Shown here: positions 3,038 to 6,171 of the stretch, one piece after another
Layout of the letters: every line of letters begins with the position of its first letter
How positions within the stretch are numbered: the first letter of the stretch is position 1
Made by a program: the position numbers and the translations under genes
Notes under the pieces: model-generated
What the model was told of the DNA's origin: nothing
The model's input: only the letters and a program-made list of their open reading frames with translations
The model's database searches: none
Assembly: GCA_003499585.1 (NCBI GenBank)
Contig: DNSU01000006.1
Coordinates: 1-6,171, forward strand
Direction: 5' to 3'
From: Cyanobacteria bacterium UBA9579
Lineage (GTDB): Bacteria > Cyanobacteriota > Vampirovibrionia > Gastranaerophilales > UBA9579
DNA length: 6,171 bases

Positions 3038-3125
3038 CTACCTGATAAAAATAAAAGTAAATGCTAGTCGCTAATAAAATATCTCAAAATATTACGAATT
3101 ATTAATGTTTTGAAAGAGGGATAAC

Positions 3126-3161
3126 AATTTTTTTGATTTATGAGTTTTATCTAATCAGACA
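3126..3161 (+). promoter_or_regulatory. Conserved upstream block, copy 1 (promoter/operator candidate)
   Basis: This 36-nt stretch matches 4031-4066 at 28 positions without gaps. Its core GTTTTATCTAATCAGACA (3144-3161) matches the other copy at 16 of 18 positions and sits at the same distance, 28 nt, from the following ATG. Inside the core is an imperfect dyad, TTnTCT-N4-AGAnAA (3147-3162). No standard -10 hexamer is obvious, so it may be an alternative-sigma promoter, an operator or a 5'-UTR element. Confidence 0.6.
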
Positions 3162-3189
3162 AATGTTTTTATGTTAAGGAGAGTATTAA

Positions 3190-3978
3190 ATGGCTAATAT
3201 CACAAGACTTGTTAACCCTCCTGTCCAACCATTAGCTCAACAGGTTAAATCCAAAGTACAAAATCCTGTTAGCTTTAAAGGTAAGGATGAGACGGATAAG
3301 CTAGATACATCAAATGAAAAAGCCAAAGATACCCCAAAAGGTAGAAAATTTAGCATAAAAAACGCATATAGATACTTTGCAAAAGGCCTTATATCTCCTA
3401 TTACAACAATGTTTGAAAGTGCCGAAAACTTCTTAATGGGTACAGGTATTATAGCCATAGGCAGCGTAATTGGAAGATTAAATAAAAATATACCTCCATT
3501 ATTCGTAGCTGCAGGACTTGCATTAGGAACTTTACAAGCATCACTAGGAATAAAACAGGCAATTACAGAGAAAAAAGCTGAAAATAAAGAAGCTGCATTC
3601 TACAACATAGGTGCAGGTACAGGTGTAGTAATGGCTTCAGCATATGCAGCAAAGTCTGTCGCTGAAACTGCAGGATTTAATGTTAAAGATAAAAATATGT
3701 TTCAGTCTGCATTAGAGTGTATCAAGCTTAATAATCTTAAAAAATCCTCAGTTGAACTAGTCAAAACCATAAGTGATCCAAATATGATTGCCAATATGAT
3801 TAAAATAGCAACAGGCAAAATTTCAGCAGATGCTATTGCAGGTGAAGTTATAGTTGATAAAACAGGTTCAACCCAGTCATTATTAACCAATTTATCCAAA
3901 TATGGTAATGGTAAATATAAACTAACCAGCGCAGGAATAGCAATAGACCAATTCAAAGATAATGACGATGAAAATTAA
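3190..3978 (+). CDS. Unassigned 262-aa protein with N-terminal SFKG motif and hydrophobic segments
   Basis: I do not recognise a known family. The start is supported by AAGGAG (3176-3181) eight nt before ATG. Residues 1-26 are a polar tail rich in P, Q and V without a signal-peptide pattern, ending in VSFKG (27-31). A charged Lys/Asp/Glu linker (32-55) follows. Three Gly/Ala-rich hydrophobic stretches come next: about 81-96 (FLMGTGIIAIGSVIG), 101-120 and 137-155. They could be membrane helices or a glycine-zipper-like core. The rest (160-262) is mixed helical with an acidic end (KDNDDEN). It contains a single cysteine (C177). Composition and A-ending codons look like coding sequence rather than a chance ORF. 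The next gene has the same upstream block, similar length and a similar N-terminal motif, so the two probably act in the same programme. Membrane association is an inference. Confidence 0.85.
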   Translation: MANITRLVNPPVQPLAQQVKSKVQNPVSFKGKDETDKLDTSNEKAKDTPKGRKFSIKNAYRYFAKGLISPITTMFESAENFLMGTGIIAIGSVIGRLNKNIPPLFVAAGLALGTLQASLGIKQAITEKKAENKEAAFYNIGAGTGVVMASAYAAKSVAETAGFNVKDKNMFQSALECIKLNNLKKSSVELVKTISDPNMIANMIKIATGKISADAIAGEVIVDKTGSTQSLLTNLSKYGNGKYKLTSAGIAIDQFKDNDDEN

Positions 3979-4030
3979 ATGTTTTCTAAGCAATTGTAAA
4001 TATTTTATAAATTACTCACATTTAATTATT

Positions 4031-4066
4031 AATTTTATATATTTACAGGTTTTATCTACTCAGAAA
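4031..4066 (+). promoter_or_regulatory. Conserved upstream block, copy 2 (promoter/operator candidate)
   Basis: Second copy of the block at 3126-3161. Conserved parts are AATTTT (4031-4036), ATTTA (4041-4045) and the core GTTTTATCTACTCAGAAA (4049-4066), which ends 28 nt before the ATG at 4095, as in copy 1. The sequence between the core and the ATG is not conserved apart from the ribosome binding site, so the core appears selected rather than merely recently duplicated. Confidence 0.6.
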
Positions 4067-4094: not shown

Positions 4095-4889
4095 ATGCAA
4101 TCAATTGTGAATAACTCCATTGCTCACCCGGGAATACAGCAAAAACCATTGTATGCAAATAAATCAATAAGTTTTGGTAATGCAGATGATGCTTCTGATA
4201 AAAAACCTGTTGATGAATCTGGAGACAAGATTTTATTTGAAGAGCAGAAAAAATTAGGCAATCAAGCTGACAAAATTCAAGAAAACTTAGATTCATTCAG
4301 AAAAACAAGAGACAAACTTATCAAAAATCCAATCGGAGAAAAAATAGCTAAATATGGAACTACCGCACTTCTTGCTGGAGCAGGCTTCATACTTGGTAAA
4401 GCTGTTATATTTGAAAAAATAATGAAAGCCAAATTTGCTGTAGAATACAAAAATAAAATATTAAATGTACTTGATGACAAAGTAAAAAAAGGCATAGATT
4501 ACATACTAAACCAGGGTAATCAGGCAAAAGCTAAAGAAGCTGCTGCTACAATTATTGATAAAGCAAAAGTTTCAATAGCCAAAGGCACCGAAAAAATCAA
4601 AGGCATGGTAATAGGAAAAGATGCACAAATCCCTGTAGAAAATTTGAGAGCTAAACTCAGTGACTTAATGATTAAATCAGGTAAAGATATTAATACTGCT
4701 ACAAAGCAAGAATTGCTTGATAAATTATTTACCAGAAAAGTTGTCTATCATAGCATTGGAAGTGTAGCTGGAACTGTTACCGCAGCAAAAGCATTCAATG
4801 AAGGTAGAAAAATTGATAATATCAATGAAGTAGATAATATGATAAAAGAAAAGCTAAAAGCAGTAAGAGATGTAGCTATAATGGTATAG
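4095..4889 (+). CDS. Unassigned 264-aa protein with N-terminal SFGN motif
   Basis: No family recognised. GGAGG (4081-4085) lies nine nt before the ATG, a strong start. The polar N-terminus (1-24) ends in ISFGN (25-29), placed like VSFKG in the preceding gene's product. An acidic/charged region (30-45) leads into a predicted charged helix or coiled coil (about 46-85). A Gly/Ala hydrophobic stretch follows at 88-106 (core TTALLAGAGFILGKAVIF). A long Lys/Ala-rich helical section (107-215) follows, then a second weakly hydrophobic Gly/Ala stretch at 216-233 (VVYHSIGSVAGTVTAAKA) and a charged helical end. It has no cysteine and no visible catalytic motif. There is no signal peptide. It lies 116 nt after the previous gene with no clear terminator between them, so partial co-transcription is possible in addition to its own upstream block. 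A membrane-linked or exported structural protein is possible but unproven. Confidence 0.85.
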   Translation: MQSIVNNSIAHPGIQQKPLYANKSISFGNADDASDKKPVDESGDKILFEEQKKLGNQADKIQENLDSFRKTRDKLIKNPIGEKIAKYGTTALLAGAGFILGKAVIFEKIMKAKFAVEYKNKILNVLDDKVKKGIDYILNQGNQAKAKEAAATIIDKAKVSIAKGTEKIKGMVIGKDAQIPVENLRAKLSDLMIKSGKDINTATKQELLDKLFTRKVVYHSIGSVAGTVTAAKAFNEGRKIDNINEVDNMIKEKLKAVRDVAIMV

Positions 4890-4893
4890 TAAT

Positions 4894-4945
4894 AAAACAT
4901 AATAAAGAGAGCAGGTTAAAAGACTTGCTCTTTTTATTATGTTTT
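4894..4945. terminator. Strong intrinsic terminator after the 264-aa protein gene
   Basis: Left arm 4894-4913 and right arm 4926-4945 pair over 20 positions with one G-U pair; the core is GAGAGCA / TGCTCTT. The 12-nt loop (GGTTAAAAGACT) can close further with wobble pairs. The right arm contains TTTTTATT, giving a plus-strand terminator five nt after the stop codon. The other strand offers a weaker T-rich arm, so it may also stop the kinase message coming from the right. Confidence 0.85.
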
Positions 4946-5145: not shown

Positions 5146-6171
5146 TTAAGCAACTGGCAAACTAAAGTAGAAGGTTGTACCTTTATCAACTTCAGATTCA
5201 AACCATATCCTGCCGTCATGTTCTTCAATTATCTGCTTTGATAAATATAATCCAAGACCTGATCCTATCTCTCTTTTTGTAGTCGGATATCTCTGGAATA
5301 TTTTAGGCTTTGATTCTTCAGGAATTCCTCTTCCATTATCACTGACAGATACTTGAACCTCATTATCTGCCTTTTTAGCTGCAACAATTATTTGAGTTCC
5401 TTTTTTATTGTGTTTTATTGCATTGCTGATGAGATTTACCAAAACTCTGTTAATCTCAGTTTGATCCATCATAACAAGAGGTAAATCAGGTTGAATATCC
5501 ATAGTAATGTCTGATTCTTGAGATTTTGCAAAATGTTTTAAAGACCTGACTGCTGCCTCAATTGTATCCTGTATATTACCAGCTTGCAGTGTTAAAGCAA
5601 TCTTTCCTGATTCGTAGTGGTATACAGAAAGCATATTATTTACAATTCTAAGCAATTCTTCATTAGTAGAGTAAATATCCTGCATATATTCAATATAATT
5701 TCTCAGCTCTGTGGAAAGATCTCTTGATGTAATAAATTCAATCGCCTTTTGTTCAGCAATTATCGGACTTCTTAAATCATGAGTCAAAGTTGCAATAAAT
5801 GTTCTTCTGGTTTCATCCAATTCCTGCCTTTGAGCTTGCTCAAAGAATATAATAGATACAGTATCAATCATCAATTTGAAAAGATCTACTTCATCAGAGG
5901 TCCATTTTCTGGGAGTTTCAGAAGTTATCAATGTAGTACCGGTAACACTTTCTTCTAGCAGTTCATATGCTTTTTTTGCACTCGGATATAACATTATTGC
6001 TTGAATTTTGTTAGATAATAAATATTCCCTAAGCGCGGTATTCTGAATTTCTTCTGCCACATCATATATAATAATTGCCTGTGTAGGATAAGGTTTAAGT
6101 TCCACAGTAGATTCTGCTGATAAAAGAACTTGTTTATAAAGGGATTTAAACATTTCAGGTTGCTGCAAGTC
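5146..6171 (-). CDS. Sensor histidine kinase, GAF-like + HisKA + HATPase_c (5' end outside window)
   Basis: The frame is open to the right edge, giving 341 visible residues (numbered from the codon at 6171-6169). A TTG at 6168 and an ATG at 6153 are internal codons, not likely starts. Visible residues 1 to about 110 look like the end of a GAF-type sensory domain, including RKWTSDEVDLFKLMIDTV (88-105). The phosphoacceptor H131 is in THDLRSP. The kinase domain shows the N box NLISNAIKH (246-254), G1 DNGRGI (278-283), the F box (KIFQRY) and G2 GSGLGL (303-308), ending with GTTF and FSLPVA. All catalytic motifs are intact. No receiver domain follows and no response regulator gene is in view, so the partner is unknown. 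No membrane segment is visible in this part, which suggests a soluble, cytoplasmic sensor, but the missing N-terminus could change that. The H-box region (FIATLTHDLRSP) resembles cyanobacterial kinases from memory. Confidence 0.93.
   Translation of the reverse strand, partial: DLQQPEMFKSLYKQVLLSAESTVELKPYPTQAIIIYDVAEEIQNTALREYLLSNKIQAIMLYPSAKKAYELLEESVTGTTLITSETPRKWTSDEVDLFKLMIDTVSIIFFEQAQRQELDETRRTFIATLTHDLRSPIIAEQKAIEFITSRDLSTELRNYIEYMQDIYSTNEELLRIVNNMLSVYHYESGKIALTLQAGNIQDTIEAAVRSLKHFAKSQESDITMDIQPDLPLVMMDQTEINRVLVNLISNAIKHNKKGTQIIVAAKKADNEVQVSVSDNGRGIPEESKPKIFQRYPTTKREIGSGLGLYLSKQIIEEHDGRIWFESEVDKGTTFYFSLPVA

Follow-up and report, generated by a model that had tools for sequence, protein, structure and literature searches.

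A two-box promoter-like element that mostly precedes genes for N-terminally tagged proteins in Gastranaerophilales, and its candidate readers

The Gastranaerophilales are non-photosynthetic relatives of the Cyanobacteria, mostly uncultured, from gut and groundwater habitats. The described promoter classes with which the element reported here is best compared belong to three kinds of sigma factor. The FliA/WhiG (sigma-28) class reads a TAAA-type -35 box, at a spacing similar to that found here, and its -10 is GCCGATAA; the boxes of SigB/SigF-class promoters are GTTTAA and GGGTAT; and housekeeping (SigA) promoters are considered last. For the Gastranaerophilales themselves, the titles and abstract openings of the papers listed from an open-access library yielded no promoters or regulons, and no description of a promoter or tag of the present kind; the word sigma occurs 0 times in PMC5877343.

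The window analyzed here is the 6,171 nt of contig DNSU01000006.1 from Cyanobacteria bacterium UBA9579, in which two adjacent genes (ORF1 and ORF2) are each preceded by a copy of the same block. Both blocks are read here as a two-box promoter-like element that stands mostly before tagged genes and is likely recognized by an alternative sigma factor serving one regulon; the probability of this reading is put at about 0.55. The features concerned are:

3124..3131, forward strand: copy 1, upstream box resembling a -35, ACAATTTT; the TTYA box follows at 13 nt, and relatives have their GYAATTTT box in this place
3137..3149, forward strand: core box of copy 1, TTTATGAGTTTTA, which fits TTYANNNGTTTTA; located by matrix scores and the window scan
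3148..3153, forward strand: putative -10-like hexamer of copy 1, TATCTA, equivalent in position to TATATA of the relative GWF2_37_15; +1 predicted near 3160
3190..3978, forward strand: ORF1, 262 amino acids, tag VSFKG at residues 27-31 (3268-3282), no Pfam match
4029..4036, forward strand: copy 2, upstream box resembling a -35, TTAATTTT; the TTYA box again follows at 13 nt
4042..4054, forward strand: core box of copy 2, TTTACAGGTTTTA; located by matrix scores and the window scan
4053..4058, forward strand: putative -10-like hexamer of copy 2, TATCTA; +1 predicted near 4065, as for copy 1
4095..4889, forward strand: ORF2, 264 amino acids, tag ISFGN at residues 25-29 (4167-4181), no Pfam family above cut-off

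The paired blocks and their genes

The original prediction, made from the letters of this locus, was of a 36-nt block shared by the two upstream regions, with an 18-nt core differing at two positions and lying equally far from each start codon. On recomputation, 3126-3161 and 4031-4066 are identical at 28/36 positions and the cores (3144-3161 and 4049-4066) at 16/18, and each core ends 28 nt before its ATG (3190 and 4095). When both 150-nt upstream regions were resampled by a first-order Markov model, 28/36 identities were reached by 0/4000 pairs in the same register and by 0/800 in any register (shifts of up to 60), and 16/18 core identities in the same register by 1/20000. The core pattern has two matches across the window, a number found in 0/200 shuffles; since the pattern derives from these same copies, the count is to some extent circular. 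The upstream boxes differ: that of copy 1 (ACAA) fails the box pattern used for counting below, while that of copy 2 satisfies it, as ATTAA at 14 nt.

Both predicted proteins carry an N-terminal tag, VSFKG in ORF1 and ISFGN in ORF2. Neither has a Pfam family above cut-off, and a protein search with the two returned self-matches only, plus one relative of ORF2 at 84%. The two do not align (best E 2.8). Neighboring copies that are equally far from the ATG could have been left by a recent tandem duplication or by the copying of a promoter segment; since ORF1 and ORF2 do not align, however, gene duplication does not explain the shared block and is ruled out as its cause, and the element also precedes unrelated genes in many genomes. 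A relic of either sort is considered highly improbable.

Upstream of the pair is a methyltransferase gene (1560-2945), presumably of the RlmD type, with matches in Gastranaerophilales and Melainabacteria genomes (protein search; the best 59-60% identical). Inspection by eye 3' of ORF2 shows a stem, AAAGAGAGCA at 4904-4913 with TGCTCTTTTT at 4926-4935, around a 12-nt loop. This stem-loop (4904-4935) is likely a terminator; it is not in the output of a terminator scan, whose loop limit the 12-nt loop exceeds.

Form and recurrence of the element

The prediction was also to be judged by conservation in relatives, and the block does recur in related genomes, before genes for tagged proteins. With up to two mismatches, the core has 18 matches in eight relatives, vs. 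eight for the reversed pattern. Fourteen of the 18 fall within open reading frames. The two closest (one mismatch) are intergenic and precede small IGFG-tagged genes, with products starting MVSSIGFGNSW and MVNGIGFGSNW. A shared sequence, TTYANNNGTTTTA, emerged before tagged genes of the fetched loci, with full matches before 12/192 tagged vs. 0/799 untagged crude gene calls, the 12 not being independent: two are from the window, two were fetched for their core match, and most of the others are orthologues beside RlmD.

Many copies are present in GWF2_37_15 (G004), whose RlmD is 57% identical to that of the window. Nine TTCA-type and 15 TTTA-type matches are followed there by a ribosome-binding site and ATG (reversed control: 0 and 2). 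The 19 full matches in fetched regions of this genome align over ~35 nt as GTYAATTTTTnTnTTYASGnGTTTTATATAAATAG, and the upstream box, GTYAATTTT, lay outside the search string. Generalized, the element is a G-Y-A-A-TTTT box followed 12-14 nt on by TTYANNNGTTTTA, ~47 nt before the start codon; in the pooled sites, TTYA lies 32-70 nt from the start codon, with a median of 47 nt. A YAA box at 12-14 nt upstream is found at 49/60 sites before tagged genes, 4/12 before untagged genes, and 5/47 chance sites inside genes. Its variants include GTAAA in a number of sites, of which many belong to orthologues beside RlmD, GCAA, GTCAA, and GTTAA in others, and ACAA and TTAA in the window. In loci L055, L039, and others, a TGTAAATTTATGTTACAA-like sequence was seen by eye ~75-100 nt before the tagged gene beside RlmD.

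A matrix was also built only from G004 sites, 28 in number after iteration, with about half of its training regions picked for holding matches; its weights are independent of the window, but the seed string was chosen after the window was inspected. Applied to upstream regions in the window, it gives the ORF1/ORF2 pair 24.7 and 21.8, and the four other scored genes -14.3 or less. Over all window positions the highest scores are 25.2 and 24.9, followed by 7.4; the maximum over 60 Markov windows was 20.2. In G004 stretches outside the training set, the element precedes 9/254 genes vs. 0/508 in shuffles.

Across the order, the TTCA form with a ribosome-binding site and ATG has 200 matches vs. 71 reversed in 79 genomes, exceeding the control in 55 of them and falling below it in nine. 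The TTTA form, under the same condition, has 70 vs. 36 in 11 genomes, four of which are at or below control, and 15 of the 70 matches are from G004. Without regard to gene starts, a strict 15-nt string, TTYASGNGTTTTATA, shows no enrichment over its control (171 vs. 161 in 117 genomes; 158 vs. 157 without G004), and it was therefore rejected as an order-wide marker. Support for the element in gut genomes is weak. The G004 matrix finds it before 1/394 genes in the gut genome G022, where a matrix from the pooled sites finds eight genes at threshold 10, all loosely tagged (some doubtfully), vs. 153/492 (p 1e-4, no shuffle); p is 0.025 at threshold 8 and 0.26 at threshold 6. A smaller sample from G044, G009, and G018 has two genes at threshold 10 with the pooled matrix, one of them tagged, and three in shuffles, numbers too low to reveal the element.

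An element of two boxes, nearly constant in spacing and set ahead of start codons, suggests a promoter. Its -10 would be at TATCTA and its start points near 3160 and 4065, ~30 nt before the ATG, so that ORF1 and ORF2 would each be transcribed from their own copy. Alternatively, a weak SigA promoter could be controlled by a DNA-binding activator or repressor that binds TTYANNNGTTTTA, perhaps in the form of a dyad: the conserved core shares positions with the -10, and the window copies allow a dyad to be drawn. The dyad of the original prediction, TTnTCT-N4-AGAnAA, is nevertheless unconserved in relatives, falling mostly in positions that vary there. In the pooled set, those after GTTTTA each carry no more than ~0.2 bit, and in G004, where they are informative, they read TATA...TAG rather than a dyad. 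Because it is not conserved, the dyad is unsupported as an operator. The second conserved box at 12-14 nt (49/60), moreover, is what a sigma factor would give, and control by such a regulator seems rather improbable. The two-box form favors a sigma factor over another kind of regulator, and a promoter class is more likely than an operator.

The tagged genes

The element is associated with the tag. Intergenic sites lying 30-80 nt ahead of a gene start were pooled from 70 loci, the window and G022 being excluded. Of the non-redundant ones, 60/72 precede genes with an N-terminal x-F-x-G-like tag, vs. 377/1154 background genes (Fisher p 1.2e-17). The background consists of bulk-region genes under the same loose tag definition, which was loosened in the course of the analysis; the loci were not selected by tag, and many were selected for a string match before a ribosome-binding site and ATG. 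Of the proposal that a shared regulator or alternative sigma factor defines a regulon of tagged proteins, the recurring signal before tagged genes is thus upheld, and the dyad as operator is what falls away.

The same association is seen within G004. Among contigs C1-C20, taken in number order and also part of the training set, 6/9 element genes are tagged vs. 18/236 others (p 3.3e-5); for all 40 scored regions, 16 of them fetched for matches, the figures are 17/30 vs. 39/558 (p 1.8e-11). Outside the training set, a strict regular expression tags 3/9 element genes (p 0.048), and inspection by eye 7/9. In G002 the element precedes 3/225 genes and 28/222 of the remaining genes are tagged; some tagged genes are therefore without it.

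An alternative-sigma regulon is expected to show two conserved boxes, spaced almost constantly, before a linked set of genes, as is seen here (upstream box in 49/60; 60/72 tagged). The element genes would likely be switched on together by one dedicated factor, and if that factor is a sigma factor reading the element, it would transcribe the tagged genes as a single order-wide regulon. Scattered unclassified proteins would then become one regulon with a readable DNA signature, its members listable from genomes, and the role of the tag, like that of the retained FliA/WhiG-class sigma discussed below, would be made directly testable. The tag itself might, as a guess, be a sorting or export signal.

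Some tagged proteins of 340-420 amino acids adjoin RlmD (L040:7832-8848 and others); a RelA_SpoT domain (PF04607) is present in that of L040, and no Pfam match in that of L039. Element genes in L125, L127, and L217 (start near base 6113) encode proteins of at least 460 amino acids with a SIFY(I/V/F)ND motif near the start, which we take to recall metallophosphatases.

Candidate sigma factors and known promoter classes

There are several sigma factors to choose from: 10/12 genomes have seven to nine sigma-70 region 2 matches each, and the other two have five. By conservation, the best candidate reader of the element is a FliA/WhiG-class sigma, found above curated cut-off in 56/60 genomes of the order. 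In G022, G044, and G009 (genome completeness unstated), FliG_C and flagellin were not found and the FliA/WhiG-class sigma is present, so it should have non-flagellar targets there. Upstream regions of flagellin genes (200 nt) have a best score of 2.3, among 19 entries from 17/30 loci, at least two of them repeats. This lack of the element does not help the FliA/WhiG candidate, though flagellin promoters may lie beyond 200 nt. Some flagellin genes share another feature: leaders in L368-L396 have, by eye, a common TTACARGGAnGTAA-like element 20-60 nt before the gene, presumably akin to the CsrA binding consensus.

A second candidate, a SigF-like sigma, was seen in the six genomes inspected for it (best named match SigF, below curated cut-off; two scanned); in five of the six it adjoins a prepilin-peptidase-like gene, named by eye. 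Autoregulation of the order-wide sigma genes through the element was rejected: 18/19 scored sigma genes are without it upstream (7.3 or less). G004 also has a divergent sigma-70 family protein (L278:18327-19388), with Pfam regions 2, 3, and 4 above cut-off, that bears the tag KISFGDG and whose gene is preceded by the element (score 21.0). It could be a regulon member able to feed back on transcription. As a rather unlikely extension of the main reading, it is tentatively suggested that a FliA/WhiG-class or similar group-3 sigma, kept even without flagella, has become the master switch for many otherwise unclassified proteins with an N-terminal x-F-x-G sorting tag, a large regulon that would pair a promoter of its own with a protein address of its own.

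Alternatively, the element could be a SigA promoter of the ordinary housekeeping kind whose spacer sequence is particular to the lineage, the tagged genes being alike in expression and needing no dedicated factor. The spacing of the boxes would fit any member of the sigma-70 family, and the -10-like TATATA or TATCTA follows GTTT at the usual place. The original prediction had found no standard sigma70 -10 in the core, which holds in the strict sense, since a scan for TTGACA and TATAAT at 16-18 nt does not have the window sites among the 13 it lists, but TATCTA (3148-3153, 4053-4058) stands where the element of G004 continues from GTTT into TATATA. The absence from that strict scan counts against SigA, as does another type of promoter in the same order, TATGnTATAAT, upstream of 6/6 SigF-like sigma genes. 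Housekeeping-like patterns in G004 precede 1/38 element genes vs. 51/804 others, which is too close to be decisive. SigA promoters do not usually have a conserved TTYANNNG in the spacer either, and a SigA promoter is judged possible but unlikely. The preferred reading is still that of an alternative-sigma recognition site.

Compared with known classes, the element may resemble FliA/WhiG promoters in a TAAA- or YAA-type upstream box with a T run at a similar spacing to the -10; unlike them, its -10 is GTTTTATA-like in G004 and GTTTTATC in the window, not GCCGATAA, and it is absent within 200 nt of the flagellin genes examined. As in SigB/SigF promoters, G-rich letters precede its TTTTA, but its matrices show boxes other than GTTTAA and GGGTAT. 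With SigA extended -10 promoters it has in common an A/T-rich -10-like hexamer directly after GTTT; it differs from SigA promoters in having neither TTGACA nor TGnTATAAT, and in the conserved TTYANNNG of its spacer.
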